From Pyropia yezoensis (Eukaryota > Rhodophyta > Bangiophyceae > Bangiales > Bangiaceae): 64,000 nucleotides of DNA. Under the pieces are notes generated by a model. It was not told the DNA's origin. It saw only the letters and a list, made by a program, of their open reading frames with translations, and did not search any database. The stretch is from NCBI GenBank assembly GCA_009829735.1, contig CM020619.1, positions 5,844,083 through 5,908,082 on the forward strand, in the 5' to 3' direction. Within the stretch, counting starts at the first letter, position 1, and every line of letters begins with the position of its first letter. Of this stretch, positions 845-62,965 are shown in pieces. The translations under genes and the position numbers were made by a program.

Positions 845-986
845 GATAGACCCTAACAGCCCTCCCTCAACGTGAGGGAAGGCCGAGCAACAGTGCCAAG
901 AGAGTGCTTCAAGTCGAAGTGGTACGCAGAGTGGCTTTTAACTACAGCCCTAACCCTCACACTCTCACAACAAAGGCAGCTGCCAA

Positions 987-2238: not shown

Positions 2239-2715
2239 AACCGTATAGGGGAGGACCTCGTTCAAGGGCCCTCGTTAAGGAGCAAGTTGCTCGCATGGAG
2301 GCCCTCGATGTGATCGAGGCGAGCAACGCCGAGTGGGCGAGTCCGGTGGTTATCGTCCCCAAAGTTGATGGGACCCCCGGTTTTGTATCGACTACCGTAA
2401 GCTCAACGAGAGCACGGTGAAGGACAGCTATCCCCTGCCTAGGATGGACGACTGTCTGGACTCTCTGGGGGAGGCAAACGTGTTCTCTACCCTGGACTGT
2501 AACGCGGGGTACTGGCAAATTCCCATTGCCCCGGAGGACAGGCATAAAACTACCTTTACCTGTCACTGTGGTACCTACCAGTGCAAGCGTCTACCGTTTG
2601 GTCTGTGTAACGCGCCGGCAACTTTCCAGCGCGCTATGGACATGATTCTGGCCGGAGTACGGTGGCAGATCTGTCTTGTGTACCTAGACGATATCATTGT
2701 GTTCTCCCCGAAGTC
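2239..2715 (+). pseudogene. Ty3/gypsy reverse transcriptase, frameshifted (element 1)
   Basis: This segment copies element RNA into DNA. The frame opens straight out of the gap and shows the RT N-terminal block (ASPVVIVPKVDG), then FCIDYRKLN, then LPFGLCNAPATFQRAMD and the catalytic YLDDIIVFS. The reading frame changes twice: around 2374, inside a C run, and around 2712-2718, just after the YLDD block. Reading resumes in the 2697-5096 frame. Both breaks look like short deletions. Given the indel-only pattern in this region, they may be sequencing errors and not decay. The sister element at 58436-60679 is unbroken over the same blocks. Confidence 0.85.
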
Positions 2716-5096: not shown

Positions 5097-5207
5097 GGGA
5101 AGGCCGAGCAACAGTGCCAAGAGAGTGCTTCAAGTCGAAGTGGTACGCAGAGTGGCTTTTAACTACAGCCCTAACCCTCACACTCTCACAACAAAGGCAG
5201 CTGCCAA

Positions 5208-7151
5208 CTAGGCACGCATGCTAGACTCTCCCACTCCACGGCCCTCGCCCTCACGTGGAGGCGAGCGGCGAGACCCACGCCGATAACGGTCTCCACTGGT
5301 TGGGAGGGGCGGTGGCTCCAAGTCGGAACCGTCGCGCCCTTCACGGTCGCGCAAGTGGCGCCGACCGTGGCTACTCTTCTGCCTGGTCTTGCGCGCAAGT
5401 TTGCGACGCAGACGCTGGACAGACTCCGTCTCCGACGGGGCAGAGGACTCCGAGACGGAGTAAGACAACTTGTCTTCCGACACGGAGGGAGAGCGCCGCG
5501 AGTGTCGGCGACGACGGCGAGGAGGCGAGTATGCCCGGCTCGCGCGACGTTTGCCACGCCCAAGTGGGGCTGGCTGGGGCATAATAGCCCCAATGCGAGC
5601 CAACTCGGCTGTCATAAACTCCGCCACCGACTCGCAACTCGCGGTCGCCACTGCAGTACGAACGTGCTCCTCAAGTTGAGGAGTCTCGGAACTTTGGAGG
5701 GTTGCGGTCGACGCGGCCAACCAGGAAATGGTGCGCACCAACGTGGTGATCATCATCTCTGAGGTTAGAGGCGTGGGCGGTAACACCAACTTGGGGTATA
5801 CCGTCAGGAGGGTGGCCCCCAAGTTGGGGGACACCGGGGTGGATGACTCCACGGCCACGCTGATCGGGATGTTCCCGTGAGGCTGGAAAGGAACAGGAGG
5901 AAGCGGAGGGGCACGCCAAGGTGGCGGTACCCGGGTGTAACTGCGACCCCGACTTGGGGCCCCCGCAGTAGGTTGAATCATATGGTCATCATATGAGGGC
6001 ACAGCCATAACTATGGGCTTGTCCGGGGGTGGCGCAGTGTGGCGATCCACCCCCGGGGCATACGGGTAGTCCCCGATGCCCAACCCCTCTCGTAGGACCA
6101 CACGGCCGTCGTGAAGCTCACGAGCGACCCACACGAACTGGCGAAGTGCGCCATCGTCCTTGGGCCCACGAGTGGGGCGGCGCAACTTGTGCTCAATGCT
6201 CTCCCACCCGATGAACTTGTGGAGGCGGAGCATCTCCTCAAGTAGAGTGAGTTGTCCTGATGAGCACCCCTCAGCAACTAGCTGAGGGGTGAGCTGTTCC
6301 AAACCTTGGATGAGCCGGAGGGGGAGATGCCAGAGCATCCCCCGCCGCTGAACACAAGACACGCAGGTCGACATGACCTCGAGGAGCCACTGGGTGGCCA
6401 ACATGGCCCACACCAGGTGATCAGGGCCAGCCGTCAACATGACGGAGCCGAAGTGGTCAAGCAACCGTGGCAGCAACGCCGGGAACCCGTAGGGGACCTC
6501 AACTTGAGGCCACCACTCGGGCTTCTTCGGATAGTAGTGCTCCTTACTGGCAGCAGACTGTTGAAAAAACTCAAGTTGAGCCGAGGTCACCAAGTAGGGA
6601 CCTCGCCGGAAGTCCTTTTCCATCCGCACATCAAAGTGATGAGTGTGCGGATCGGCCTCGTGGAGGTACGGGGGGCGAGTTGCCACCGCGTCCCAAGTAA
6701 AGGTCGGCAAGTCGCCGGGACCCGGGATAGTTCCCCCGCGGTCCACCATGGCCTTGGCACGCTGAACGTCCTCAACCTCCTCATCGTCCAGGAAGGCAAA
6801 CTGGTCCGTCCTGAAGCCGGCAGGGAACCCGACCCTACGGGGATACTTCTCCCGTAGGCGGTCCCATACCCGACCCATCGCTGCGCCAAGTCGGCCACAG
6901 CGAAGAACAGTCAACCCCTCCTCATAGAGAGGCCAAGCGGGGTAAAACCACCGCCCCAAGGCCTCACGCGGGACAACTTGTCCCGCCTCCGGGGGAGACC
7001 CCGCCGTCAACCCAAAGCCGGGTGACGCGGGAGTCCCATCCCCCGGAGCGATCGCGGAGCCCCCACCGGAAGTCCCGGCGGGTGCTGCACCGTAGGTGGT
7101 GTCCTCCATACGCTCATCTAGAGAGTCCGTCTCCACTCCCGGTGTCGCCAT
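5208..7151 (-). CDS. Antisense gene inside element 1: 647-residue protein with globular core and Arg/Ser-rich tail
   Basis: I do not recognise this protein. It reads opposite to pol, between the pol stop (5096) and the polypurine tract (7477), so it belongs to the element. I chose the Met at 7151 (context CC-ATG-GCG); the frame continues upstream to 7322. Residues about 75-400 look like a folded, helix-rich domain with many Trp, Leu and Phe (for example LLPRLLDHFGSVML and HLVWAMLATQWLLEVM). Residues about 530-647 are basic and Ser-rich (SPPRRRRRHSRRS and similar), like an RNA-binding RS tail. No RT, protease or zinc knuckle is visible. The Gag-like architecture (helical body plus basic tail) is an inference. 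Extra antisense ORFs in this position are known from some plant Ty3/gypsy elements. The frame is intact here but broken in copy A. Confidence 0.65.
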   Translation of the reverse strand: MATPGVETDSLDERMEDTTYGAAPAGTSGGGSAIAPGDGTPASPGFGLTAGSPPEAGQVVPREALGRWFYPAWPLYEEGLTVLRCGRLGAAMGRVWDRLREKYPRRVGFPAGFRTDQFAFLDDEEVEDVQRAKAMVDRGGTIPGPGDLPTFTWDAVATRPPYLHEADPHTHHFDVRMEKDFRRGPYLVTSAQLEFFQQSAASKEHYYPKKPEWWPQVEVPYGFPALLPRLLDHFGSVMLTAGPDHLVWAMLATQWLLEVMSTCVSCVQRRGMLWHLPLRLIQGLEQLTPQLVAEGCSSGQLTLLEEMLRLHKFIGWESIEHKLRRPTRGPKDDGALRQFVWVARELHDGRVVLREGLGIGDYPYAPGVDRHTAPPPDKPIVMAVPSYDDHMIQPTAGAPSRGRSYTRVPPPWRAPPLPPVPFQPHGNIPISVAVESSTPVSPNLGATLLTVYPKLVLPPTPLTSEMMITTLVRTISWLAASTATLQSSETPQLEEHVRTAVATASCESVAEFMTAELARIGAIMPQPAPLGRGKRRASRAYSPPRRRRRHSRRSPSVSEDKLSYSVSESSAPSETESVQRLRRKLARKTRQKSSHGRRHLRDREGRDGSDLEPPPLPTSGDRYRRGSRRSPPREGEGRGVGESSMRA

Positions 7152-7476
7152 GGCTCTCCCCAAGTTGGGGAGAGACGCTCTGGCTATCGCGGCACGAGAC
7201 CCGCCTCGAGTTGAGGGGGACTCGGATCGTGGGTATACGGGTGGCCTCCCCAGCGTGAGGCGGCCCAGTAGAAGGTGAAGGGGAGGTGGTGGTGATGGTG
7301 AAGTGTGAACTGAGGAGAGCAAGCTGCCGAGTGGGCAAGCTTGAGGAGAGGGGCGGTCAACGTGACCGCCTCCACATCCGCGTTACGTACTCGAGGGGGG
7401 ACAGCAAGTCGCGCCCCCAACGCCGAGACGTGCGTTTACGCACCCCCTCACAGGGCCGACCGGGTCGGTCGGAACT

Positions 7477-47246: not shown

Positions 47247-49175
47247 ATGGCATCCAGCAACGGTGACGCTCTGCCCGCCCCTGCCGACCCGTCGGCGGCC
47301 ACAGCGGCGTCCGCTGACGGGACGCCCGGCGCGGGACCCCCCCCCTCCGCCGCCCCCGCGGACCCGTCTGTGGTGGTCACCCCGTGGGAAGTGTCGGGTA
47401 TTGTCGACTACTCCAAGCTCATCCAGCAGTTTGGGTCCACAGAGCTCACCCCCGCGCTGGTCGCCCGCCTGGAGCGGGTGACGGGCCGGCCGGCGCACCA
47501 CTTTTTGCGGCGGGGCATCTACTTTAGCCACCGGGATCTGGACAAGATGCTCGACCTGTACGAGGCGGGCCAGAAGTTCTACCTCTACACGGGCCGGGGG
47601 CCCAGCAGCGTTAGTTTGCATTTGGGTGCGTTGGGCTGAGGGGGGGGGTGGGACGCTGCGGGGGGTCGACGGGCAGGGGCTGGGTGGACGGTGGCTCAGC
47701 GGCATTAGGCTGCACGTTGCCGTGTTGGGCGGAGGGAGAGGCGCTGGGGGTGGGGGCGGGGGGGGCAAGGCACTGAGGGGAGGATGCCGGGCTGGGGTTC
47801 GATGGACACGAGAGTGCCGCGTCCGCGCCAGTCCTTGTTGCCTGCCCCTTTTGACGCGCCCGCAGGAGTGGTGACCTTCTCCGTGACCTCCCTCGCCGTT
47901 GGCCAGAGGGCTGAGCACTAACTGCCATGGCTCGGATGTCCCTGTTGCGCCTGCCCTCCTCTTCTACCGACGGCGCAACGCTCTTTTGTGTATTGTGCGA
48001 CGTGGTCCGCCTACTGGACTTGTGCAGGTCACCTCACACCCTTCATGTTTACCAAGTACCTGCAGGATGCTTTCGATGCGGTGGTAGTCATCCAGCTCAC
48101 CAACGATGAGAAGTTCCTCTTCTCCAAGGAGACCAAGCGCCCACTGGAGGAGTTCACGCGGTTAGGCAGGGAAAATGCTAAGGTACGTTGGCTGCTGTGT
48201 GTTGCAACGGCGTCTGGTGGCTTTTCTCGGCTCTGACGGCGACCGGTGACGGACGCGCCTCTCTATCACGCATCTGTGATCTCCTATCTGTACGTGTGGC
48301 TTTGAGTGCTGACTTTGTTGGCACCCGGAGCCTCTCGCTGTGGTCGTCAGAGCTTTGCCCCCCCCCCTTGTCATTGCTCTATCTGATTTCTGTATGTTCC
48401 CGCCGTTGTCCCCCCGTCGTCCCGAAAAACTCTGCAGGATATCATTGCGTGTGGCTTCAACCCTGAAAAGACCTTCATCTTCATGGACACGGACTACATC
48501 GGGTCCCTCTACCCCAACGTACTCCGCATCCAGCGGGCGGTAACGTACAACCAGGTGAAGGGGATCTTTGGGTTTACCGACTCGGACAATATCGGCAAGC
48601 ACGGCTTCCCCGCAGTGCAGGCCGCCCCCTGCCTCTCCTCTTCCTTCCCCGTCCTGTTTGGTGGCCGCCCCGACGTGCCGTGCGTGGTGCCGTGCGCAAT
48701 CGACCAGGACCCCTACTTTCGGATGACCCGGGACGTGACGCCCAAGCTGGGTGCCCGCAAGCCCGCCCTCTTGCACTCCAAGTTCTTCCCCGCCCTCCAG
48801 GGGGACAACACCAAGATGTCCGCGTCGGACCCGTCGTCGGCCATCTACCTCGACGACACGGCCAAGATGGTGAAGAAAAAGGTCAACAAGCACGCGTTTT
48901 CGGGCGGCGGCGCTACCGTTGAGGCGCACCGGGAGCACGGGGGCAACGTGGAGGTGGACATCCCGTACCGCTATCTCACCTTTTTCCTCGACGACGACGT
49001 GGAGCTGGACCGCATCCGCGCCGAGTACGCGGCTGGCCGGATGCTGACAGGGGAGATCAAGGCGGCGCTTATTGGCGTGCTGACGCCTCTGGTGGAGGGA
49101 CACCAGGCGCGGCGGGCAGCCGTGACGGAGGAGGTCATTGATCGGTTCATGGCGGTGCGGCCGATGGAGCTCTGA
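47247..49175 (+). CDS. Tryptophanyl-tRNA synthetase, eukaryotic cytosolic type (three exons)
   Basis: Charges tRNA-Trp. Exons are 47247-47625, 48028-48182 and 48438-49175, total 423 residues. Donors are GTGCGT and GTACGT; acceptors are GTGCAG and CTGCAG; phases 1 and 0. The N-terminal ~30 residues are Ala/Pro-rich. Then [20 protein letters not shown] opens the family core, with [15 protein letters not shown]. The class I HIGH-equivalent is HLGH at residues 125-128, and its Gly codon is split by intron 1. Later come [38 protein letters not shown] and the KMSAS loop at residues 304-308. The C-terminal anticodon-binding helices end [13 protein letters not shown]. The sequence is of the archaeal/eukaryotic subtype and no transit peptide is evident, so it is probably cytosolic. 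Confidence 0.95.
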
Positions 49176-50425
49176 GGGGTATCCGCCGTGGGGGACCGTG
49201 CAATGTAGGAGGTAGGAGGGGGTTGGTTGGATCGAAGAAGCAACGCAGGCGTTGGCCTCCCTTCCACACGATTGCGCACACAGGGTCTTCCACCTTTTGT
49301 GGTCTCTCCTCCTTTGGGAATGGTGTGCAGTCAACGGGTGGCTGGGGGGGGGATGGGGGGGGGACAGGGCACACGACGCCGAACGAGTGCTTGTCTCGGG
49401 TGTGGTGCTGAGTCCTGTACGCCATCTTAACGAGGTCAATGCGACTCCGGCCCCCCCCCGCCGCGAGGGTGCCAGGGAGGGTCTCTTGATATAGGAGTGA
49501 TTGCGCGGGGGGTACCGAAGCCGTTTGAGGTACTGGGTGGGCTCCTGGGGGGGTGCGTGTGCTGGCTGGCCGAGGCACTACACACGTAAAGAACACACAA
49601 CATCGTATTTGGGCAGGCGGCTGCCGCGGCGGCATTGGAGACGCTTTGTTATGCGCAGATATGTTTTTTTTTGCGTGGGCATGTCCATGCAAGAGATACT
49701 AAATCCGGATGAGTGTAGAGAGACGCATTACAGAGCACCGCTTTGGTCATCTGTCGTCGCATGATTCCATCTGTCTTTCATCATTATTTTGGGTCTTCGT
49801 TTGAACGGAGCTTGCTTGCTCTACTCCCTGACCGTGTCTGCCCGGTTTGGACAAGATAGCTAGACAGGTGGCCTTGGGTGATCTTGCAAGCTTCTTTCTT
49901 CTCTTGAGAGTGGTAGTCGTGTCGCTCCCTTCTCGTTTTGGCCAGCTGAAGCGCCTCAGGCTGGCTGCGCGTCCTCCTTCGTTTCGGGTGTCGGCCCAGA
50001 CTGCTGCGCTCGAGCAAACGGCAGCCCGGCATACATGGACCCGGTTTTTCCGCTCTTGCACAGAAGTAGAGTGTGCCTACGTGTATGTAGGGACTCAGGG
50101 ACGTCTCTTCCTCCACTGCAGCCTAAACGAAAAGGATCTTGCTACCGCCATGGAGGTCCTGGGGGGGAAGAAAGAAGGTTCATATGCGTACTTGGTGCGC
50201 CCCATTTTCCAGCTCTCCACAACTTGTACTGTACAGCGCGCGGTGGGTTACACATTGTCCACACCCTACAACGAGGGTTTGGGTTTCACATTGTCCACAC
50301 CCGGCGCGCGCTCCGCCATGTCGCCAGAGCCACGAGCCGCCCAGCCCAGCCGAGCACATCCACGCTCCACTCCACTCCCCCCCCCCCCCTTTCTACCCCG
50401 CGCCCCGCAGCAACCCCCATCCCAC
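49176..50425. other. Intergenic, no supported gene
   Basis: More balanced composition than the rest of the window. Contains a TTGTACTGTACAG motif near 50225-50237 and a direct repeat TTTCACATTGTCCACACC / TTACACATTGTCCACACC at 50249-50301. No gene or RNA recognised. Confidence 0.5.
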
Positions 50426-50665
50426 TCAACAGCAAAGACTGCACAGGTCGTCGCACAAGCAGCAGGCAAACAGCTTATTGTCAGTTAGGCAGCCGCCGCC
50501 CTTGAGCCCCGCCGCGGCATCGTCTCCAACGGCCACCACCGGCGGCGCCGGTGCTGTCGCCGGCGGCGTCGGAGCCCCCGCCAATGCCTTGTCGAGGGGA
50601 GATGCGACGGCGACGGCCGCGGGGGCGGCGACCGTTTCGACAGCGCGGGGGGTGGCGTCCATCAT
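50426..50665 (-). CDS. Small protein with Cys-rich C-terminus, unknown
   Basis: 79 residues from tandem Mets at 50665/50662. The body is Ala/Val/Pro-rich (RAVETVAAPAAVAVASPLD). The C-terminus is distinctive: GGGCLTDNKLFACCLCDDLC, then SLCC and stop, with seven Cys in the last 22 residues. Such a tail could be palmitoylated or bind metal; it also resembles the Cys-rich transmembrane tails of small stress proteins, but I cannot assign it. The frame continues upstream to 51106 with low-complexity sequence that I take as leader or intron. Confidence is moderate because the gene is short. Confidence 0.42.
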   Translation of the reverse strand: MMDATPRAVETVAAPAAVAVASPLDKALAGAPTPPATAPAPPVVAVGDDAAAGLKGGGCLTDNKLFACCLCDDLCSLCC

Positions 50666-51524
50666 GGAGGGGGTCAGCAAGTCCGCTGCGCCTTCAGGAG
50701 AGGGAGGAGAAGATGGGTGGGGGGGGGAAGGAAGGGATGGAGGGGAGGGGGAAGGTGGATGAGGGGAGAAGGCTGAGGAATGCGAAAAAATGCAGCTCAA
50801 GACAGAGGCAGGAAAAGGATAGACGCCACAGGGGGGGCGGGGAGGGGGAAAGAGGGGGGCAGAAAGAGGGGGGAGGGTGCGCAACGCATGCAACCACGCG
50901 GGACATATACGGCGACAGATTAGAAAGGTTAGATAACTGCGCGACCACAGGGTGACCACGCGGCGACCACTGGGCGACCATCCGACGGTGAATAGAGAGA
51001 GCGGCGCATCAGGCGCGGGGGGGGGTGGGGCGGCTTGACCGCGTTGCCACATCTTTTCTTCTGCCGCTCGTGTTGCTCCGCGCCACCCCATGGAGGCGCT
51101 TCCCACGACGCGGCGGCCGACGAGGGAGTTGTGAGGCGATCACGACCAACCAGCCGACGGGCCGAGGGACGGTGTCTTATCCCCCGCCTTTGCCAAACGT
51201 ACGTGTCGTCGTCACGGCTCCGGATGCGCCGCAGTCCTGATCAACCTACGGGTGTGTACGGACGATGACGGGCGTCGGCGGAGAAGGTGCGCTGGTGGGG
51301 CGCACCAGGTAATCAAATAGTGTGGGGGGTACTGATACTGCTGTACAGCAAGGAACATCTCGTTCAATCGTTGGCCCGCGTCCTGTAAAGCGCCGAGGAT
51401 GTGCATGCGAAAAAGAGCATGGACACGCCGACGAGGCACTGTACTGTACGCCCGGCCGATATGTTGGCCTCCGCTCAGATACGTTCCATCTAGAATGTTC
51501 CCACGAATGAATGAGTAAGCACAT
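50666..51524. other. Intergenic, no gene seen
   Basis: Upstream of the small Cys-tail gene; G-rich at 50700-50880, then balanced. A TGTACTGTACG motif lies near 51439-51450. Confidence 0.45.
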
Positions 51525-53089
51525 GTGACGGGTGACTAGAGAATCCTCATTTTTTTGGCACTCAACGTTTTGAGTTAGACATACCATTGTGATGAGGTGA
51601 ACGAGATCTCTCCGATGACGTTGGATTCGACTCCATCCGTCCTGATGTAGTTGACTTATCCGTCTGACACCAGTTTTTCACAAGTGACACCAGTTTTTCA
51701 CAACTTCCGCTTACATGGAAAACCCACAGTGTTTGCGTATGAGAGTCCCTTCCGAACGGCCGCAGAAGTCGGCAGCAGCCGCAAGGTAACTCGTACTAAA
51801 ATATGATCCAGTGCAACGTGAGTCGCACCGTTGGGTGCGCCAGCTCACAGGCTCTTCAACGATGTAAAGAAGAATAACATAGGAGCCCAGGTGCGCGACT
51901 GAAGCCTCACGGGCGGAAAAGCGAGCGCTCCTGCGGAGGTCAAATTGGTTCTAATTACCGCCCCAGAACGCTCATCTGACTGACTGTTGGCCCGAACCCG
52001 ACTTCTTTGTAACGCATCCGTGCGTCCCGCTCGCCCCACCTGTGCCCCGCTGCCCTCTTCCTCCTCCTATCCCGGGTTTGAGCTCCTTGGCAGAGTCACC
52101 AGAAGAGCAGAACACGTCTGTGGGCCTGTCTCGGCCTACCAGGACCTCTGGAATTGCTGCAGTGGGCAGACGGTGGCGCAAGCGCCTCTTCCCGCTTGCC
52201 CTCACCCTCCCCACCTTCCCCCCTTTAACCCCCCCGGCTGTTCTGGACAGGGCTTCGGCGGGAGCCAGCGGGCGCGCCCCAACAATAGTCTACCCCACAC
52301 TTTCCCCAGCACGGCCACCCCCCCTCACGGGCGCGTCGCTGTCAGCGAGGGGCGAGGGAGGTGCTATCATCAGGCTCATTGAAGTGGGACAAGAGCATCT
52401 GTTCCCGCGTTCTTTCAGACGTAAAGCCCTACCCGTTGAGCACGCGAGCATCTCTACCAGCCGCAAGTCCCAACGAGCTCCGTCGCTGTTGGGGGGCGAG
52501 GGGGGCGACGCGTAACCACCCCGGAGCAGGGGGGGACGCTCTTTGGAGCTCAGGGGCTGTGATGCCAAACGTCACGATCGCGAAGGGGTCGTGCTGCTTC
52601 AGCTCTCTTCGCTCTCATTGGTCGACGGACGTGAAAAGAAGCTCCACGATTACAAATACAATCAAGTTTTTTCTGCTGTATTTCTGCAAGAAGTGCCCCA
52701 GGTGGCTGCCCTGATATGTAAACGAGAGTTCTGACAAACTGGTGTACCCCCCCCAAACGAGGGTGCATGTCTTCCTACGCAACCAGGCATCGCCTGCAGA
52801 ATCGGACCAAACGACCGGGCTCCTGAGGTGCTGTCGAGCCCGCTAATATGTTTTTTGAGAAAAACGCAGCTTGGCAACCTTCCCTCATATGCGAGTTGTG
52901 AAAATCTGGTGTCAGACGGATATGGCGTAAAGAAAAATGCTAAACATTGCGGAGACTTTAGAAAACGCGCTCTCAGGGCCCTTCCAGGGCGCTTCTGGGG
53001 TGATTTTAGAAATTGCAAAATCTTCAAAGCCCGCTATCTCCGTTTGACTGTGCTCAAGAAAATGAGGACTCTATCGTCACCCGCCACAC
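51525..53089. mobile_element. Inverted-repeat-bounded element, ~1.6 kb, decayed
   Basis: Two blocks occur in inverted order at both ends. Block A (GGGTGAC, AGA.TCCTCATTTT) is at 51525-51563 and, reversed, at about 53050-53089. Block B (ATCCGTCTGACACCAG then TTTTCACAA) is at 51658-51682 and, reversed, at 52895-52922. A 20-base unit ending CACCAGTTTTTCACAA is also duplicated directly at 51668-51705. The interior has no long frame and is less GC-rich than the surroundings. This fits an old non-autonomous DNA transposon with long terminal inverted repeats; the outer limits are uncertain. Confidence 0.5.
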
Positions 53090-55020
53090 ATCTTTGGTAC
53101 GTTGCACAAAAAAGATACATGGAGGTTTTTCTCGGCTCGGGCCCGGGCGCCACACCGGCCGTGGCGGGGTCCACGGGCGCCATGCTGACAGAAGGATCAC
53201 AGAGCCCCATACGAACTCATGAGGTCCTTGGGTCCCCGGGACGGCGTACCGCTTTCAGGGACACCCTGGGTGGACCGGCTGCTGTCGACCCTGAAATGGG
53301 GGCATCCTTTTCGCATTGATTTGCCCGGCTCGGGGGTCGGTCCTGGCCTACGTGCTAACTGAAGCTTGGAAGAGGGGTAGTCGATTTTAGAGAGGAGCCA
53401 TGGGACGGCTGGAGGCCATTGTTTTGAGGACTTTTTTCCGTGTGCGGGTCACCGTTTTTGAGATCGCCGTTCTTGGGGTAAATGTTCCATGTCATGGGGT
53501 CGCCTGATTGGTCCACGAAGAAGCCTGGTCCTCATGTGTCCAGTGCCCGTTGTGGCATCTTGGGCAGGTGCCCCTCATGCTCCTGATGAAGCGGGCCTCT
53601 CCCCCCCCTTCCCCTCGTGGACCCCTCTCCTGGACCAGGCACATCAGGGAGGCAACCCCCCCCAGCCCGCTTCCCTCTGGCGGTTCCACCTTTGGCAGGT
53701 GGAGTGCAGTGCGGGGGGGCATGCCCAGGTGGAGTGGGTTCTCGACAGGCGCGGACAGTGCACGGGCCCAGGAGGCAAGGGGGAAAGCGTCTCACATGTG
53801 CGTGGCGTGGGGGGGGGTCATGCCTCGAGAAGAGGCGGAAGTGCACGACATCGCATCAAGGCACTTCGTGCTTTGAGCACGAAGTGCCTCGATGCTGTTT
53901 GGCCCATCGGGCAGACCATCCCATGCCCCCCCCCAAAATCGGCCCGCACGACGCCCTGCACCATCCCGACACCACCTTCCTCCCTGTCCTGCTGCACCAG
54001 AATTTACCCGCCCCGTCCCTCATATCCCTTCTGCCCGGTGGAGCCACCGCGCATGCCCCCCTGCGCCCGCAATGGAAAGAAAAGCGCCTGCGCTGACGCG
54101 GGCGCCGGCGCCGGCGGCTAGCACCAATGCCACTGTTGTCGCCGCCACCCGCTCCACTCCAATTCAAACAATGACTTTACCCTGCCCGTTTCTCCTTACG
54201 CCTACGGACCCCCCCCCCGCCCCCCCATCCAGCTATCGAACCGCCCGCCATCGCCGCAGCCGCCCTCGCCCAAACAAAACACCGCCGCCATGCGTCACTA
54301 GAATGCCCCCAACGCAGAAAGCCATCAACGTCCCCAGCCCGCCCCCTCCAAAAATGGGCAGCTACCAGCCCTTGAAACCCTCCCCCTCCACCCCCTGGCG
54401 CTGCTACCGCCACCACACCCCCCAGCGAAAAAAACCGACCCCGCCGTCCCCAGCGACCTGCCCGACCCCCTCACAAAGCGTCCCCACCGTCCCCCCACCC
54501 TCCCCCTGCGAACCGTCCCCGCGGCCGCCTGCCGCCCTGCTCTCCCTCTCCCACAACGGCTGCGGCACCACCGCGGCCCAAAAAAACGTGGCCACATCTT
54601 CCTGTGGCCTGCCTCACCCCCACCAAAAAGTCTACACGGCCGTCTGCCCGCCGCCCCCCCCCCCCCCCCCCCAAAACACCGTCCCCACCTCCTCCCTCCC
54701 CAAAACACGTTACCACAGCCGCCTGTGGCCAGGCCGTCTTTGCAACCGCCTCGATGGCTGCCGCGGCGGTCGCCGTGACCGCCGCCTCTTCAATGGCCAC
54801 CGCCGCCCCCGCGTCGACCGCCGCCGTGGTGACCGACGTCGCCACCGCCGCCGCCGCCGTCACCACTGCCGCGCTATCGCGGGCACCCTCCCTCGATTAA
54901 AGACCATCCCCACTGCCGCCACCAGGCGCCCTCCCCTACCCCCCAACAAAAAAGGCCGTCAACCTCTTCCCCTCTCCCCTCAAAAATCGTAGCCATCACC
55001 GCCGCTGCAGCCGCGGTCAA
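53090..55020. other. Intergenic, no supported gene; contains a strong hairpin and C-rich DNA
   Basis: 53.1-53.9 kb is balanced. A minus-strand frame has a zinc-knuckle-like string (GTCPRCHNGHWTHEDQ, near 53560), too isolated to call. From 53.9 kb the + strand is C-rich with Pro/Thr frames. 54.7-54.9 kb reads as an Ala/Val/Thr repeat resembling the tandem repeat that follows. Confidence 0.45.
53853..53895. ncRNA. 43-nt near-perfect stem-loop
   Basis: Arms 53853-53872 and 53876-53895 pair over 20 positions with one mismatch and a TTG loop. The inner 13 pairs (GGCACTTCGTGCT with AGCACGAAGTGCC) are perfect. It could be a small-RNA precursor, a transcription terminator-like structure or a foldback insertion; nothing in the sequence decides this. 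Confidence 0.4.
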
Positions 55021-55655
55021 CATGGCCGCCTCGTCGGCCACGGCGGCCGCCACCATGGGCACCGAGGTGCGCGGGGTCGCCGGCACCGCGGGCACCGGCA
55101 CAGGAAGGGTGGCCACCACCTCCGCCTCGGCCGCCGGGCCGGCCGCCACAGCAGCCGACGTCACCAGCGTCGTCGCCGTCCCCGCCGCCGCCTTCATTGC
55201 CGCCGCCGGCCCTCCCCCCCCCCCCCCTAAACACGCCGTCGTCGCTGCTGTCGTCCATTCCGCCGCCGCCGCTGACGTCGCCGCCGCCGTCCCCCCCCTC
55301 CCCCCCAAAAAACTCGTCGTCGCCGCCGCCACCGCCGCCGCCGCCATCGCCGTCGCCATCGCAGCCACCGCCATGGCAGCCTCGTCGGCCACGGCGGCCG
55401 CCACCATGGGCACCGAGGTGCGCGGGGTCGCCGGCGCCGCGGGCACGGGCACCGACAGGGTGGTCACCACCTCCGCCTCGGCCGCCGGGCCGGCCGCCAC
55501 AGCAGCCGACGCCACCAGCGTCGTCGCCGTCCCCGCCGCCGCCGCCGTCATCGCCGCCGCCGCGCCCCCCCCCCCCCCCCCCCCAACACGCCGTCGTCGC
55601 TGCTGCCGTCCATTCCGCCGCCGCCGCTGACGTCGCCGCCGCCGTCCCACCCCTC
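55021..55655 (+). repeat. Two-copy tandem repeat, ~355-bp unit, Ala/Val/Pro-coding
   Basis: The unit starting ATGGCCGCCTCGTCGGCCAC at 55021 recurs from about 55375 (ATGGCAGCCTCGTCGGCCAC) with near identity, and each copy ends in CCATTCCGCCGCCGCCGCTG... . Both units stay open as an Ala/Val/Thr/Pro frame, 55022-55630 on +, and also as a frame on the minus strand, so coding status is unclear. The LTR of element 2 begins directly after the second unit. Confidence 0.7.
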
Positions 55656-56018
55656 TGTAGCAATATGGTTGTCCGTATTGTGACCCTAATATTAGGGGGG
55701 CTACTTCTAATCCTTAACTTTCAATTTGAGAGTCCGTACTGGTCACGGTATCTATAAGTTACGTATGACCAGAGGGACTTGCATCTTGGGGTGGAGGGTA
55801 GTTAGTAGTGTCTCCGAGGGTTTATAACGAGGGGGCCGGTGGCGAATCCACCGCCGGCCAAGGTAGAACAACAAACCCCTCCCATTTGGGCTCCCATCTT
55901 GGTCCCGTGGCTTGCGCTCCAAGGACAGCAACCTTGGCCTCCCGGTGACGTTGGTGCCGATCCCCCTTGGTGAGTGTTCCCTGAGAGTGGACGTGCGACG
56001 GATTCCTATTGTGCTACA
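55656..56018 (+). repeat. 5' LTR of element 2 (363 bp)
   Basis: Bounded by perfect 6-bp inverted ends, TGTAGC and GCTACA, and followed after one base by the primer binding site. Contains hairpins CCTAATATTAGG (55684-55695) and a GGCCGGTGGCG...CCGCCGGCC pair near 55832-55859. Confidence 0.85.
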
Positions 56019-56019
56019 T

Positions 56020-56037
56020 TGGTGGAGCAGCAGGGGA
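56020..56037 (+). other. Primer binding site of element 2
   Basis: TGGTGGAGCAGCAGGGGA begins one base after the LTR. The leading TGG is the complement of a tRNA CCA end. It does not look like the initiator-Met primer site common in plant elements; the tRNA identity is not determined. Confidence 0.65.
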
Positions 56038-56237
56038 CGGGTTTCCGTCACCCTTGTGGTGACGCCGTCTTCGGCCCTGGCACACGGATAGGGATCCGGT
56101 CCTTTTCTTGTACTCGTGGTGTTGCGACCTGATCGATTGTGTTGAGCTTTTACCTGTGACGGTGACCTACTGTTACTCTCCCCAATCTACCCCCTCGCTC
56201 TCTTATTCGTGGTGATCGTTGCGTCGGTGGACTGATT

Positions 56238-58427
56238 GTGACTATGTCTACCCAAGAGACGGGGAACGTTCAAGATGACGGATCGGCGTCGACGCCGACT
56301 CCGGAGGTGACTACGGGAACCGGGATCGGGAACCCGATCGATAACATTGAGACGCCAATGCTTTCCGGTGCCGGATCGACGTTTGGCACGGCTCGGACGG
56401 CAGGAGGCGGAGGCCCGCCTCAACTGTCGTCGACCGACCTCACTCCGCCGCCTCCTTCACCAGGGGATTCCCTGATGGCATCATTGGCCCGCATCGAGGC
56501 CCGGTTTTCCGGGCTCGACGCCCGTCAAGATCGGACGGAGGACGCAATGGCAGTGTTGATGTCAACACGGCACACGACGGGACCCCGTCGTGTTCCTCCC
56601 ACACCGGTACGGTTCGAACCGGCCGGACTACTTTCGGAGTCCACCAGGGTCAATCCCGGGGTTGCTACTCCTGGACAACCCCCGGACACAATGGGATATG
56701 GGTCCGACTCGTCGGCAGAGTTGGAACGGAGTCACACGGAGCGATACTCTCGGAGCACCCGAAGCGGACTCCGCGGACACGACCCGGCGGATACTTACGC
56801 CGGGGGAGAGTCGGTTATTGGGGGAGGGGGTACCCTCTCGCAGTACCCCCACGACGAAGGAGGCCAGGCAACTCGGGTTCCCGAGGTGCCGACGCCTGAA
56901 GTACCATCTTCAGTGGTGGAAGCTATGACCGCGCAGGTCACTGCGAGCCTACTGAAGCGGATGGAGTCCGATGAGTTTGCTCATCAACTGGCTAAGCGAC
57001 TGGATATCCAGGACGCTGACACGGAGATCGTCAACGAAGTCTTCAGGTCGGTACTGACTCCCGAACGTTATCGTTTGGAGGACCGATCTACCACCGTATC
57101 GGAATCGATGCGTAATACGTCGCATCGGGCGATCCGCTCTATGCAGACCCTTATGAAGGGAGTCCCTATGTTCGGGGGGCCGAACGGACGCCCGTTGGCA
57201 GTCATCGGCTTCTTGACTAGCTTCAAGGCAGCCGCGGACAAGGCCCTCGTTAACGAGGGGCTGGCCCTGGAGATCCTCCCGTTCTTTGTTGATGAACGGG
57301 TGCGAGGCATTCTTCGCCAGGCATCCCCGATGCCGGGAATGAGGGTCGCGGCCACCCCCATGGATTACCGTGGGATATTGAAGGAGCTGCTGAGCAGCTA
57401 CCTCAGTGAGGACAAGTGCGAGGACCACTATCGGGCCCTTCGCACTGCCACCGCCCAGTCCTGGGAGGATGAGGAGATGTTTGGACGCCGGATGCAAGAG
57501 CTCGACTACGAGCTGGGGAAGCTCCTCGGAGAAGGGGAGCTACGGGCCATCCTGTTCGCAGGAGTACCCAACTACGTGCGGATATCCGCACGGGGCGCCA
57601 ACACGGCACGGACGAACTTCAGTCGACTGATGCATATGTGCAAGTCCCTAGGGGACGCCTACCGGGTTCTACACCCGGAGTGTGCCTTGGCCCCGAAGCC
57701 CAAGGGTGAGGGAGGAAAGCCCAGTCTTACCCCGGTACCGAGGCAAGAGAAGGTGGAACGTAAGGCCGCACCAGTACTGGTGGCGACCGAACATACCCCT
57801 ATTGGTGAGGATGACCCTCTAGTCGACCAACAGGGCCACCTGTTGCTACCGGCGACGCCGGTGATTGATGAACACGGTACGGTAGCGTACATCGCCCCGG
57901 CTGGAACCCAGTTCCAGGTCAACGAAGGAACGGGACGGCGCGTCCCGTATGTGCGGACTACGGGGTACTCCCCGGTGACGGGTAACCCTCACCAACCCTT
58001 GCCAACATGGGCGGTGCTCACGGAGGCACCCCCGCAGATTGCGGGCCGACCCAACCGGTTGGGGGAGTCCATGTTCCGGTTGACCCAAGGACCCAAGGCC
58101 TACCAGGGAGCAGGCACTCGGGCGCCCGAGGGAGGCAACCGTAGCTACGGGGCTACCCCGATGCGACCTCAAGGGGGGACCGGCACGTCCGGGTGTATGT
58201 TTTGTGGGGATCCCCAGCACTGGGTGTCTTCCTGCCCACTCATCCCCGAGGAGTCTCGGCGGGCAGCGGCGCAACGCAAGGCATCCACCGGGGGGTATCC
58301 CGCCCGAGCACCCGGACCCGCACCGGGTAGGCAGCCAGCTCCAGGTGGAGTACTGGCCGTCGAGGGGGCACCTCCTCAGCCGGATGTCCCGGCGGACAGC
58401 ACCCTACCAAGGGCGGGAAACGAGTAA
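56238..58427 (+). CDS. gag: Gag of Ty3/gypsy element 2
   Basis: Structural protein that forms the virus-like particle and packages element RNA. 729 residues from 56238; a second in-frame ATG at 56244 is equally good. Residues 1-200 are Ser/Thr/Pro/Gly-rich; residues about 285-480 form the helical capsid-like region (MQTLMKGVPMFGG, VIGFLTSFKAAADKAL, WEDEEMFGRRMQELDYELG). A single CCHC zinc knuckle, CMFCGDPQHWVSSC, lies at residues 653-666 with the correct C-2-C-4-H-4-C spacing. The frame is intact to its own TAA at 58425-58427, only 8 bases before the pol ATG. Confidence 0.92.
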   Translation: MTMSTQETGNVQDDGSASTPTPEVTTGTGIGNPIDNIETPMLSGAGSTFGTARTAGGGGPPQLSSTDLTPPPPSPGDSLMASLARIEARFSGLDARQDRTEDAMAVLMSTRHTTGPRRVPPTPVRFEPAGLLSESTRVNPGVATPGQPPDTMGYGSDSSAELERSHTERYSRSTRSGLRGHDPADTYAGGESVIGGGGTLSQYPHDEGGQATRVPEVPTPEVPSSVVEAMTAQVTASLLKRMESDEFAHQLAKRLDIQDADTEIVNEVFRSVLTPERYRLEDRSTTVSESMRNTSHRAIRSMQTLMKGVPMFGGPNGRPLAVIGFLTSFKAAADKALVNEGLALEILPFFVDERVRGILRQASPMPGMRVAATPMDYRGILKELLSSYLSEDKCEDHYRALRTATAQSWEDEEMFGRRMQELDYELGKLLGEGELRAILFAGVPNYVRISARGANTARTNFSRLMHMCKSLGDAYRVLHPECALAPKPKGEGGKPSLTPVPRQEKVERKAAPVLVATEHTPIGEDDPLVDQQGHLLLPATPVIDEHGTVAYIAPAGTQFQVNEGTGRRVPYVRTTGYSPVTGNPHQPLPTWAVLTEAPPQIAGRPNRLGESMFRLTQGPKAYQGAGTRAPEGGNRSYGATPMRPQGGTGTSGCMFCGDPQHWVSSCPLIPEESRRAAAQRKASTGGYPARAPGPAPGRQPAPGGVLAVEGAPPQPDVPADSTLPRAGNE

Positions 58428-58435
58428 GAGGAAGG

Positions 58436-60679
58436 ATGACCGGGGGGCGCTGGGGTCACCCAAGCAAGCCACCCCGGAGTACCGCGGGGAAAGCCCCACG
58501 GAGAGCGCGGTTGAGCCGACGCCGCATCAACCCCCGGGTACACCTTCCGGCCCCGACGACACGGCGTCAGGGGATTGATGACCAACCTCCAAGGTTGGGA
58601 GGAAAGGACGGGAAGCCCCGTCACGTTGAACCAGACAAGGGCCCTGTTCAGGATGCCCGAGCTACACCGGATATCGGTGTAGGACATGTGTTGTTTACCT
58701 TGGAGAACTTCAAGGTATCAGCCACACTGGGGGTTGACCCCCAGTCGACACGATCGTACTACCCTGTACTGGACACAGGGGCTGGACCCAACCTTATCCG
58801 GAAGGATACCCTCCCGGACAAGTGGCTTCCACGAGTCAGAGTGACTCGGGGACCCACCATCAAGGACGCGAATGGTCGACTCATTCGTACGACCGCAGCG
58901 ATGTCGCTGCAGGTTACCATCGGGGATCTCACCACGGAAGTTGACTTCCTGGTATGTGAAACGCTATCGGTGCCCTGCATACTGGGGTGCACCTTCATCA
59001 ACGTTCACGTTGATGCAATCCGGCCAGGCCGGAGGACCGTCGAGCTTCAAGAAGCCGACGGGACGAAGCGAGGACACACGGCTATCGTCAGGGACCTGAC
59101 GCTACAAGGAAGCCACGTTAACGTGGCTGAGGTGTACGCAAGCGTCGAGCCGAAGACACTTCGGTTGGCCAAGCGAACTCGCTTTGAGCCGTTGTCAGAG
59201 ACAGTCCTCCCGGTTAACTGCGACCTCGCAGGCATCTGCAGAGTCCAGTCCAACCTACGGACGTACAAGCGCCATGGGTTGACCATGGCCAACGGTCTCA
59301 TAGACCTCCCAGCAGGAGGGTCGTCCCTCCTAGTGATGGCGAACTATCGCCGTAAGGCAGTTACCCTCCCGAAGGGAACTATCCTCGGGATTGCCGAACT
59401 CTACGAAGGAGATATCCTTACCCCTGATAAGGAAGGTCAAGTGGAACCACTTGAAGTACTGGCGGTCGCCGAGACCACCGAGCGACAGCAAACCGATGAC
59501 GGGAAGCCTAACCCATCGGCGGCTCCGGCGGACCTGCCGCCAAAGGACCAAGAGGCCTTGAAGGCACTGGCCGAGGCTGACCTCGACCACCTTCCCCCTT
59601 CGGTAGCCGAAGGGGTACGACGGATGCTAAGAAAGCATGACGTTATGTGGACAGGCGGGGCCTTGGGGACCATTGGGGCAACCCAACATCGTATAGACCT
59701 GGTACCAGGCGCACGACCCGCCCGCTCACAACCGCACCGAGCGGGACCTATGCAACGAGAGATCGTTGATGGAGAAGTGAAGAGGATGAGTGAAGCTAAG
59801 GTGATCCGACCTTCGATGTCGGAATGGGGTGCCCCAGTCGTTATTGTGCCGAAGAAGGATCAAACCCCTCGGTTTTGCATCGATTATCGACGCCTCAACT
59901 TGGTTACCAAGAAGGACTCATACCCTTTACCAAGGATGGATGAATGCATCGACTCCCTGGGGGAGGCTACGGTGTTTACCACCATCGACTGCAATGCCGG
60001 ATACTGGCAGATCCCGGTGGCGGACGAGGATATCCCCAAGACGGCATTCGTCTGTCACAGTGGAGTGTACGAGTTCCTAAGGATGCCCTTCGGATTGTCC
60101 AACGCCCCCGCTACATTCCAGCGGGCTATCGACATCATACTGTCGGGGGTGAAGTGGCGTAACTGCCTAGTGTACCTCGATGACGTCATCGTCTTCTCGC
60201 GTAACATGGATGACCATGTACAACATGTTGACGAGGTACTCACCCTCTTGAGGAACGCCGGGGTAACCCTGCGTCTGAAGAATTGCACCTTCTTCCAACA
60301 GACGGTCGAATATCTGGGCCACCAGATAACCCCTGGTAAACTAGGGGTACTCGAAGCCAATACCCGGGCACTCCGGGATGCCCGGTTCCCTAACACCCAG
60401 ACGCAGCTCAAGAGCTTCCTGGGAATGTGCAATGTATACCGACGGTTCGTCAAGGACTTCGCTCGGATAGCTAAACCGTTAACGGTTCTTACGAGCAGTA
60501 CCTTACCCAAGGTACTCCAACCCCCTTCGCCTAGCGAAGAGGAGGCATTCGAGTCGCTGAAGCGAGCCCTACTAGCCCCACCCGTCCTTGCGTTACCGCA
60601 TAGACGGGGTACCTTCGTCATCGATGTCGATGCGTGTGATACACAAGTGGGATGCACCCTGTTACAGGAGAGACGTTGA
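58436..60679 (+). CDS. pol: Pol of element 2, first part: protease, reverse transcriptase, start of RNase H
   Basis: 747 residues. Aspartic protease with catalytic Asp at residue 113 in VLDTGAGPNLI; RT with PVVIVPKKDQ, FCIDYRRLN near residue 480, MPFGLSNAPATFQRAID and the catalytic YLDD at residues 580-583. RNase H begins at VIDVDACDTQVGCTLLQ, then the frame breaks near 60665-60679 and continues in another frame from about 60652. The pol ATG (58436) follows the gag TAA (58425-58427) across a purine-rich GAGGAAGG spacer, which suggests stop-and-restart translation. The DNA is unusually dense in short perfect inverted repeats. Confidence 0.92.
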   Translation: MTGGRWGHPSKPPRSTAGKAPRRARLSRRRINPRVHLPAPTTRRQGIDDQPPRLGGKDGKPRHVEPDKGPVQDARATPDIGVGHVLFTLENFKVSATLGVDPQSTRSYYPVLDTGAGPNLIRKDTLPDKWLPRVRVTRGPTIKDANGRLIRTTAAMSLQVTIGDLTTEVDFLVCETLSVPCILGCTFINVHVDAIRPGRRTVELQEADGTKRGHTAIVRDLTLQGSHVNVAEVYASVEPKTLRLAKRTRFEPLSETVLPVNCDLAGICRVQSNLRTYKRHGLTMANGLIDLPAGGSSLLVMANYRRKAVTLPKGTILGIAELYEGDILTPDKEGQVEPLEVLAVAETTERQQTDDGKPNPSAAPADLPPKDQEALKALAEADLDHLPPSVAEGVRRMLRKHDVMWTGGALGTIGATQHRIDLVPGARPARSQPHRAGPMQREIVDGEVKRMSEAKVIRPSMSEWGAPVVIVPKKDQTPRFCIDYRRLNLVTKKDSYPLPRMDECIDSLGEATVFTTIDCNAGYWQIPVADEDIPKTAFVCHSGVYEFLRMPFGLSNAPATFQRAIDIILSGVKWRNCLVYLDDVIVFSRNMDDHVQHVDEVLTLLRNAGVTLRLKNCTFFQQTVEYLGHQITPGKLGVLEANTRALRDARFPNTQTQLKSFLGMCNVYRRFVKDFARIAKPLTVLTSSTLPKVLQPPSPSEEEAFESLKRALLAPPVLALPHRRGTFVIDVDACDTQVGCTLLQERR

Positions 60680-62465
60680 TAGGTACCGACAACGTTATCC
60701 CGGACCTACGTCCGGTAGGGTACTTCAGCCGGACACTCAACCCGGCTGAGCGGAACTATAGTGCCACCGAGCGTGAATGCCTCGGAGTTATATGGGCAGT
60801 GCAACTGCTCCGTCCATACCTGGAGGGCTCCAGGTTCATCGTGAGGTCCGACCACGAACCCCTACGATGGCTCCTCAACCTTGGTGACAAGGATTCCGAT
60901 AGCCATGGGAGGCTAGCCCGATGGAGGCTGACGATGGCCGAGCACGACTACCGCACGGTGTATAAGGCTGGGTCAACCCACCACCTCAGAGACGCGTTGT
61001 CTCGACTCGACACCCCGAGCGGGGATACCCGCCCGGTGGACGAGGACATCCCGGTAGTACCGGTGTGCATGGTGGGTAATGCTACCCAGGGTATGGCTGA
61101 CCATACCATGGCACACCTTGCGTGCCCATTGACCCTCGCGGACTTCCGCGTGGCACAGGCCAACGACGATGACTGTAGACGTCATCGTGCTAACCTCCTG
61201 GCCGGTACGGCCGGCATCTTCTCCGAGAACGAAGACGGACTCATATACCGGCGGGCACCCGCCGATGGACGACATCAAGTCGTGGTTCCCGTGTCCTTAC
61301 GGCAAGCCGTCATGAAACGAGAACATGAGAACCCTACAGCCGGACACCCGGGGGGTTCACGTATGTTCGCAGCAATGCGAAGGTTCTTCTACTGGCCAGC
61401 AATGGCCGTCGACGTGGTCGACCACGTACGGGGATGCCACCCCTGTGCACGTAACCGCATGAGTCTACATAGGCGGGCGTCTGCCATGAAGCTATTCCCA
61501 CCTGATGGGCCCAACGAGCAAGTCGCTATCGACATACTCGGGCCACTTCCGATAACGGAAGAAGGGAACAGGTACATCCTTGTCATGTCTGACCGCTTCA
61601 CTAAGCTGTCAAGAGCGGCAGCCATCCCGAATGATACGGCATACACGATCATGAACGCAGTGGTTGACCACTGGATCAGTGCATACGGAGTCATGAAGCA
61701 ACTCCTCTCCGATAACGGAGCAAACCTTACGTCGGCATTCTGCACTAAGGTCCTGGGCATGTTCGGTATTGAACCACGTCGGGCATCCGACTACCACCCG
61801 CAGTCCAACGGGCAGGTGGAGCGGTTCAACTGCACCATCGTCAAGATGCTACAGTGCTACGTGGCCGAGCACACGAACACTTGGGACAGGCTTCTGTCCG
61901 TACTCACCCTGGCATACAATGCCAGGCCACATCGGAGCACAAACATTGCTCCGCTGGAGTGGGTCATGCCACTAGGCGTCGGTAACTTGACGCTGCCACC
62001 CGGCAGGTGCACTCGGTATGATACACCGAAGGGCCGACCCGCCGAACGCATCCACCTAGCTTGGTTGGCCAAGCTATCGTGGATGATTCCTAAGCTCAAG
62101 GGTGCCCTTGACAGAACACAACTTCGGTATAAGAAGAACTTCGACGCCCGACTACGGGTGCGCAACGCAACCCTGGTAACAGGTGACTGGGTCTATATCA
62201 GACACCAGAAGTTCCGAGGGAACAAGCTTATGCAACCGGTCAAGGGACCGTACCAGATCCTCCACAGAGATGACCACTCTGTTATCTTACACTCCGATAC
62301 GGAGATCCAACGCATCAGTATGAATGATGTCACACCTGCTCCGAAGCCGGAACAGCCTCAGCCGGTACCGGCTGGGTTGCTACATGAAGCTCTTACAACC
62401 CACCGGTCGGATGACCCGGTGGGACCGGATGGGATTCCATACCAAGTAGAGAGCGTGGTCGGACA
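60652..62465 (+). CDS. pol: Pol of element 2, second part: RNase H and integrase, 3' end in gap
   Basis: Continues pol after the frame change near 60670, probably a one-base deletion or error. RNase H residues include the Glu in ATERE and Asp in SDHEPLRW. The integrase zinc finger HHCC (H in REH and GH, C in CHPC) spans about 61318-61455. The catalytic core has Asp codons at 61531 and 61711 and Glu at 61819, which is the exact D,D35E spacing. A basic C-terminal region follows, ending in YQVESVVG, which looks like the first strand of a chromodomain. The 500-N gap interrupts it. Codons after the gap (from 62966) do not obviously continue it. Confidence 0.92.
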
Positions 62466-62965
62466 NNNNNNNNNNNNNNNNNNNNNNNNNNNNNNNNNNN
62501 NNNNNNNNNNNNNNNNNNNNNNNNNNNNNNNNNNNNNNNNNNNNNNNNNNNNNNNNNNNNNNNNNNNNNNNNNNNNNNNNNNNNNNNNNNNNNNNNNNNN
62601 NNNNNNNNNNNNNNNNNNNNNNNNNNNNNNNNNNNNNNNNNNNNNNNNNNNNNNNNNNNNNNNNNNNNNNNNNNNNNNNNNNNNNNNNNNNNNNNNNNNN
62701 NNNNNNNNNNNNNNNNNNNNNNNNNNNNNNNNNNNNNNNNNNNNNNNNNNNNNNNNNNNNNNNNNNNNNNNNNNNNNNNNNNNNNNNNNNNNNNNNNNNN
62801 NNNNNNNNNNNNNNNNNNNNNNNNNNNNNNNNNNNNNNNNNNNNNNNNNNNNNNNNNNNNNNNNNNNNNNNNNNNNNNNNNNNNNNNNNNNNNNNNNNNN
62901 NNNNNNNNNNNNNNNNNNNNNNNNNNNNNNNNNNNNNNNNNNNNNNNNNNNNNNNNNNNNNNNNN
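62466..62965. other. Scaffold gap, exactly 500 N
   Basis: Exactly 500 unknown bases. The 3' end and 3' LTR of element 2 are expected inside or beyond it. Confidence 0.99.

Follow-up and report, generated by a model that had tools for sequence, protein, structure and literature searches.

Why should the protein-coding genes of a mobile element be densely filled with short perfect inverted repeats? The question is raised by element 2, a retrotransposon of the Ty3/gypsy type with long terminal repeats (LTRs), which lies in a stretch of 64,000 nucleotides (nt) of contig CM020619.1 of the red alga Pyropia yezoensis (the window) and whose pol gene had been singled out for such repeats in a sequence-only reading. 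As an inverted repeat (IR) we count a perfect one, in the main count with arms of at least 7 bases and a loop of 0-9, and each frame is compared with 250 shuffles that keep its codons and its dinucleotides. The genome searched comprises 107.5 Mb in 11 contigs, and coordinates are positions in the window unless a locus name (L followed by a number) is given.

Inverted repeats in element 2 and its relatives

The IR excess in element 2 is a real and strong feature. The gag frame (56166-58424) holds 19 IRs against 3.0 in the shuffles (z 8.9, shuffle maximum 10), the protease and reverse transcriptase (PR-RT) frame (58331-60676) likewise 19 against 2.5 (z 10.6, maximum 8), and the RNase H and integrase (RNaseH-INT) frame (60640-62463) 13 against 1.5 (z 9.9, maximum 5). 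All 12 repeats quoted in the sequence-only reading proved exact in letters and position, the first being one base longer on each side (58726-58745), and its estimate of at least 18 IRs in 58436-60679 (arms of at least 7, loops up to 11) with fewer than 2 expected agrees with our count of 20, dinucleotide shuffles giving 1.5. That the repeats run through the YLDD motif is likewise borne out by a palindrome in this region. The tract and the repeats discussed individually, none of them assigned to a strand, are:

56283-62423: dense tract of short IRs through gag and pol, with 51 IRs (arms of at least 7, loops 0-9) in 56166-62463
58726-58745: example hairpin with arms of 9, loop TG and a G-NNNN-C core
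59111-59128: example palindrome AGCCACGTTAACGTGGCT, centre T-A, exact
59595-59615: example hairpin with arms of 9 and a loop of 3, exact
60178-60191: palindrome CGATGACGTCATCG in the YLDD region, exact
61933-61953: hairpin CGGAGCA-caaacat-TGCTCCG, absent in 6 of 30 copies, which carry six synonymous changes in 61938-61959

The excess is specific in kind. Shuffles that preserve codons and dinucleotides do not reproduce the density, and because the excess vanishes in them, composition, codon usage and amino-acid sequence are ruled out as its cause. DNA of matching GC content at 48001-54000 has 5 IRs against 4.1 expected, compared with 47 against 4.0 in the element at 56001-62000; a host-wide process is rejected on the normal density of this GC-matched DNA and of the clade II elements described below. 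Direct repeats (6 against 5.4) and mirror repeats (4 against 6.0) of equal size class show no excess. The surplus of IRs is confined to loops of up to about 9 and is gone from loop 10 on, palindromes with loop 0 being among the commonest IRs of element 2. Arms are mostly 6-11 bp, and among the IRs listed for the elements (loops 0-12) no perfect arm exceeds 11 bp. Perfect stems of at least 8 pairs number 21 against 0.9 in element 2 and stems of this length with one mismatch 8 against 2.9, the latter class amounting overall to 44 against 12.2 expected. The LTR and leader (55656-56165) have 4 IRs with arms of at least 6 against 1.0 expected. Other IR peaks in the window, at 13-14, 39-40 and 42-43 kb, consist mostly of GGC/GCC-rich repeats.

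Among the loci sampled, the dense IRs belong to one Ty3/gypsy-like clade of this genome (clade I). The pol loci were drawn from Pfam H2C2 matches (14), then from six more of the same list and one found by a search with the protein of element 1, a second clade I element of the window, and then from RVT_1 matches (7). Six sampled clade I families are enriched. The ratio of observed to shuffled IRs is 3.5 in L039, 2.9 in L043, 5.2 in the pol of element 1 and 6.4 in the RNaseH-INT frame of element 2. A further 14 loci, all of clade I, give 1.6-5.5, and eight loci from subfamilies of element 2, at 90-99% identity, give 4.9-10.8, the highest value being that of L066, which like L014 and L048 holds 500 N. 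Clade II, represented by 12 loci (L031-L038, L040-L042 and L044), shows no enrichment (0.0-1.7); its upper values are overlapped by the lowest of clade I (L050 1.6, L058 1.7, L048 1.9), which come from shorter open frames. IR counts inside one family are non-independent. The GC content of pol is 0.54-0.62 in clade I and 0.51-0.54 in clade II. In the reverse transcriptase (RT) tree a branch with support 100/99 separates the IR-rich families, along with two proteins without an IR count, from the others, subject to a long-branch warning.

Maintenance of the repeats

Natural selection appears to keep these repeats, and it fits the data better than does template switching, the process by which the sequence-only reading had supposed that near-palindromes might become perfect. 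Divergent stretches were masked before counting in the analyses of variants, of third positions and of neutral re-placement, as was the part of L014 upstream of its base 1310, from which onward it matches element 2. Among 30 copies of element 2, 232 variants destroy 30 IRs and create 9, where random placement gives 37.2 and 8.4; losses and gains differ (p 0.001), so that mutation removes more repeats than it creates, and no clear bias towards making them is seen. In the pol piece compared in these copies (L001-L030; window 58360-62160) the most frequent variants are G>A, with 52 of the 232, and C>T, with 37.

Older changes behave differently from recent ones. In eight subfamily sequences (L066 excluded from the substitution count), 111 older substitutions, shared by groups or fixed on the L064 branch, cause 7 losses against 14.2 expected (p 0.02) and 8 gains against 5.1, whereas 100 tip substitutions cause 11 losses against 12.4 and 5 gains against 4.0. 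That older changes avoid IRs and new ones hardly do so is as purifying selection predicts. Together with the erasure of the excess by codon-preserving shuffles, this avoidance supports the earlier suggestion that synonymous choice closes the hairpins. Neutral re-placement of the changes from L064 to L063 leaves 23.3 IRs with arms of at least 6 where 35 are observed, and 9.3 with arms of at least 7 where 19 are observed. At the shorter arm length 17 of 20 clade I comparisons reach P <= 0.03 (the remaining three lie at 0.135-0.14), and among five in clade II one reaches 0.01 at this length and none with arms of at least 7; taken alone, this result is also compatible with decay from an ancestor richer in IRs. 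Double changes that preserve pairing number 4 in the subfamilies against 0, 0, 0, 0, 1 and 0 in six slid controls, and across family pairs pairing is kept in 9 of 12 cases for clade I, compared with 5 of 15 for clade II. Third-position changes hit 92 of 670 sites in clade I arms against 707 of 4171 outside (p 0.04), and in clade II 72 of 294 against 1277 of 6179 (p 0.12). Family pairs in the third-position, double-change and re-placement analyses partly share sequences.

One cluster of changes separates a hairpin from its absence. Six synonymous changes, all inside the 22 nt of 61938-61959, set two haplotypes apart; the hairpin form, that of the window copy, is found in 24 of the 30 copies and the hairpin-free form in 6, and genome-wide, at up to 3 mismatches, they have 570 and 280 matches. 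As the hairpin-free haplotype is present in L063, the most divergent subfamily fetched (L061-L068 having been chosen by that haplotype), the hairpin at 61933-61953 may be the newer state, although the direction is unsure. Such a gain would speak for template switching; however, both arms, the loop and one outside base have all changed, which a single arm-to-arm copying would not yield. The site resembles a small recombination tract and, because all these parts differ, a template switch is no likelier as its origin than recombination with a relative. Of the four clusters of changes, out of six, for which IRs were computed, three have an IR in the window-type copy that is absent or weaker in the other, and in one neither has it.

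Family styles, strands and candidate readers

The IRs follow a style particular to each family. In element 2, 64 of 102 IRs with arms of at least 6 have even centres, where shuffles give 9.4 even and 9.5 odd, and of its 22 loop-0 centres, counting those of the 3' region, 20 are CG or TA (56% in shuffles). A core of the form G-NNNN-C recurs there: G-C occupies the third inner pair in 13 of 24 even centres of the coding region with five outer positions paired, and in 7 of 14 even centres of the separate 3' region, against 10% in shuffles for either set. In element 1 and the sister L039 family the core is instead A-C/G-T, with A and T on either side of the centre in 26 of the 50 odd IRs as compared with 5.4% of 830 in shuffles, and its middle base is C in 15 and G in 11 of the 26, making it strand-symmetric.

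Positions of the IRs largely turn over between families, matching the expectation for interchangeable sites. Compared with rotation, centres in different clade I families fall on the same base in 14 cases against 0.6, within 2 nt in 27 against 12.8, within 5 nt in 40 against 31.6, and within 10 nt in 61 against 61.5; density is kept. Codon-shuffled family pairs show overlap beyond rotation as well; part of the overlap is thus due to conserved amino acids, and positional conservation yields no conclusion.

As to the strand or molecule concerned, folding energies in windows of nine clade I stretches lie far below those of shuffles on the plus strand (z -4.8 to -15.2), with the minus strand similarly structured, and two clade II stretches give -3.1 and -2.1; these z values are rough, with 12 shuffles each, eight of the clade I stretches being compared with codon- and dinucleotide-preserving shuffles and one with dinucleotide shuffles. 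Stems of at least 7 pairs with one mismatch have A.C in 28 cases against 6.3 expected, G.T in 10 against 4.5, A.G in 11 against 5.9 and C.T in 10 against 4.5, and the separate 3' region has 9 with A.C and 2 with G.T. The proportion of A.C to G.T (28:10) departs from the mutation bias of 83:67 (p 0.016), and L052 (no A.C, two G.T) and L060 (none and one) go in the opposite direction. A broader count allowing several mismatches finds no class preference at 8 or more pairs (G.T 1.55, A.C 1.61, A.G 1.56 and C.T 1.57 times expectation), and at 9 or more G.T (1.78) exceeds A.C (1.48). These counts argue against plain folding of plus-strand RNA and speak weakly and inconsistently for the minus strand. 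Selection for a structured genomic RNA, one of the causes named in the sequence-only reading, is possible, but the similarity of both strands, the absence of favour for G.U and the strand-symmetric cores stand against it; the interpretation given in that reading is, taken as a whole, partly supported.

The proteins that might read such hairpins are those of the elements themselves, whose parts are as follows:

55656-56018, plus strand: 5' LTR of element 2, 363 bp, TGTAGCA...TGCTACA, identical over 363 bp to a stretch of another copy (L059:3956-4318)
56166-58427, plus strand: gag-like open frame of element 2, 753 codons from stop to stop, with relatives in Pyropia vietnamensis
58194-58235, plus strand: CMFCGDPQHWVSSC in the translation of the gag frame near the Gag C terminus, a CCHC zinc knuckle and a candidate hairpin reader
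58331-60679, plus strand: pol part 1 (protease-like, reverse transcriptase, start of RNase H); Pfam RVT_1 1.7e-34, RT_RNaseH_2 4e-9, gag-asp_proteas just under cut-off
60640-62465, plus strand: pol part 2 (RNase H, integrase); Pfam RT_RNaseH, Integrase_H2C2 and rve; enters the N gap 62466-62965
2688-5096, plus strand: pol of element 1, of the same clade as element 2; IRs 9 against 2.0 (loops 0-12), a weaker excess than in element 2, mostly with odd loops
5208-7382, minus strand: antisense open reading frame (ORF) of element 1, 724 amino acids (aa), after pol; this stretch too is IR-rich

The order of domains in pol, protease, RT, RNase H and integrase, is that of Ty3/gypsy-type elements, the Pfam matches following it with the protease just below cut-off. 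In the window copy the pol frame is broken between parts 1 and 2, and it is open in other copies; the best 40 of 1,269 candidate genome matches to an 801-base RT piece are all 100% identical. Relatives of Gag and pol in Pyropia vietnamensis match part of the queries at 62-74% identity, a kinship that points to a bangiophyte red alga as the probable host, and none were found in IMG/VR. The Gag of element 2 has no Pfam match at E <= 0.001, and its structure model is too poor for use (mean predicted local distance difference test score, pLDDT, 32.9). In element 1, window positions 1-1738 and 4223-5959, comprising the end of pol and the 3' region, share one orientation and 99.5% identity; an N gap (1739-2238) lies between them. 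A piece of 480 bases of its pol (3197-3676) is 97% identical to part of L046, the proteins elsewhere being about 58% identical, which might reflect recombination or a nested fragment. The pentamer CCCTC stands beside GCC-rich repeats both in the 5' flank of the window copy of element 2 (55651-55655) and in the 3' flank of the L059 copy (4319-4323), and this common flank may indicate a preferred site within such repeats.

An IR-rich region with a long antisense ORF follows pol in four of the five clade I families examined (L046 left out): besides the 724 aa of element 1, the product measures 990 aa in element 2 (L059:925-3894, minus strand), 880 in L053 and 1,073 in L052, the latter two ORFs being read at loci L102 and L103; the L039 family has frames of only 274 and 262 aa. 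After L031 and L035 of clade II no antisense frame exceeds 267 aa in the 4 kb read. The contrast thus covers five clade I and two clade II families, with 4 kb each for five loci. A distant relationship links the products of elements 1 and 2 (E 7e-10 over 230 aa), and a Pfam scan of both found no family above cut-off and no TRP28 domain; for that of element 2 one relative was found, and a structure model was too poor for use (mean pLDDT 28.7). The plant Retand lineage of Ty3/gypsy elements similarly has a long region between pol and the 3' LTR with antisense ORFs (PMC11963269), but carries the TRP28 domain absent from the two red-algal products scanned; the main text of that paper uses neither the term hairpin nor the term secondary structure (PMC11963269).

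Readings of the repeats

We tentatively favour a reading in which the IRs would be many small cis-acting hairpin sites, spread over the nucleic acid of the element and held by purifying selection through synonymous codon choice. Their reader would be a nucleic-acid-binding protein encoded by the element, either Gag with its CCHC knuckle or the antisense-ORF product, and the protein of each family would prefer its own style, a loop of about 4 nt closed by G-C in element 2 and an odd loop centred on A-C/G-T in element 1 and L039, in the manner of coat proteins at dispersed packaging signals. The molecule read might be RNA, minus-strand complementary DNA (cDNA) or antisense RNA, and the step served packaging, condensation or cDNA handling. 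It is the combination of many interchangeable hairpins, a family core and turnover of positions that favours recognition by one of these proteins; binding, strand and step alike remain conjectural, and the proposal is plausible rather than probable. A more specific form of it, in which dozens of interchangeable hairpins with a family-specific, strand-symmetric core would constitute a code written by synonymous choice and read by a protein on single-stranded cDNA or on both strands, seems conceivable but doubtful.

Several observations weigh against recognition by an element protein. The symmetry of the A-C/G-T core is odd for an RNA-binding protein; cores are clear in two lineages only, with none clear in L046, L052 or L053; the loop-0 palindromes so common in element 2 are not hairpin loops as such; and G.T mismatches (G.U in RNA) are tolerated no more than others. 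The CCHC knuckle is documented for the Gag of element 2. As regards selection, the shortfall of losses among the 30 copies against random placement is not significant (p 0.11), just 11 of 20 clade I comparisons reach P <= 0.03 in neutral re-placement with arms of at least 7, and third-position depletion in clade I arms is modest (0.137 against 0.170). The check for compensatory change is divided: the four double changes exceed the slid controls, but under a less strict criterion pairs found in two Watson-Crick forms are not in surplus, with 20 of 1,068 in clade I and 9 of 267 in clade II, which is the more divergent.

Other explanations dispense with a specific reader or change the molecule. 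General folding of the genomic RNA into a genome-scale ordered structure, for compaction or escape from RNA silencing, would account for the low folding energy of clade I and for the turnover of positions; yet the excess ends at loops of about 9 although longer loops would fold, G.U pairs are not favoured, the minus strand is similarly structured and family-specific cores are not predicted. It is an unlikely explanation. The hairpins might instead act in minus-strand cDNA or an antisense transcript, for example in nucleocapsid binding on single-stranded cDNA or in keeping antisense and sense RNA apart. The surplus of A.C, the wobble pair of the minus strand, over G.T in the stems with one mismatch and the long antisense ORFs of the IR-rich families would suit this, but the broader mismatch count and the opposite direction in L052 and L060 do not, and it too is improbable.

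Template switching during reverse transcription or repair, perfecting near-palindromes without any function, is a known process able to create and maintain hairpins (PMC8794818, in its accessible part) and has been considered for coding palindromes in hairworms (PMC6649704). It agrees with the greater excess of perfect than of imperfect stems and with the small surplus of gains on group branches, and would predict perfect stems with paired changes (PMC8794818); however, neither the recent variants nor the tip substitutions make stems above random, and in the same host the trait is missing from clade II. We regard it as distinctly unlikely. Still further from the evidence, and very improbable, is the idea that the IRs are integration targets that pull new copies into old ones. 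One copy of element 2, L011, is indeed inserted antisense inside a perfect IR with arms of 7 and a loop of 1, where the RT gene of a related element encodes YLDD; it sits 3 bases off the IR centre and has the target duplication CATCG (L076, C3:746230-746630, with L085). However, target duplications are of 5 bp (in four of seven copies having both flanks, among 13 examined), an odd number, and the IRs of element 2 are mostly even-centred; none of four empty sites is centred on an IR with arms of at least 6, and three have none nearby.

Among known systems, genome-scale ordered RNA structure is comparable in that folding energy lies under sequence-preserving shuffles along the coding region, and differs from the narrow class of short-loop perfect IRs seen here on both strands without favour for G.U. 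Hepatitis B and MS2 are reportedly cases of dispersed RNA packaging signals. Such signals of RNA viruses are many small stem-loops with a common recognition feature; the IRs studied here resemble them in being spread over the genome beyond chance, and the cores, clear in two lineages, may be a counterpart of that feature. Element 2 differs in being an LTR retrotransposon whose core is strand-symmetric, whose stems do not favour G.U and for which an analogue of coat-protein binding is only surmised (PMC6281560, in its accessible part). The nearest published case found is that of Nematomorpha (hairworms), whose mitochondrial genes carry coding palindromes of up to 284 bp, for which the authors consider repeat conversion or template switching (PMC6649704). 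There too perfect IRs lie in conserved coding sequence with the protein kept, but they are long, mitochondrial and, in the accessible text, without an excess of imperfect repeats (PMC6649704); those of the red-algal elements have short arms, are very dense, and show imperfect stems in excess, family cores and signs of selection. The earlier opinion that no equivalent had been described was therefore too strong (PMC6649704), and it stands for retrotransposons to the extent that no account of such cis-signalling or dense coding IRs in them was found in the literature searched, outside which most subscription journals lie.

If the proposal of hairpins recognised by an element protein is true, a structural message would run as a second layer through the genes of a mobile element and be maintained by selection, and an IR-poor clade in the same genome would serve as a natural control. 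The family-specific cores make the reader testable, and a comparison of related algae would trace the evolution of such a code. The system also offers a test of selection against template switching as the makers of coding palindromes.

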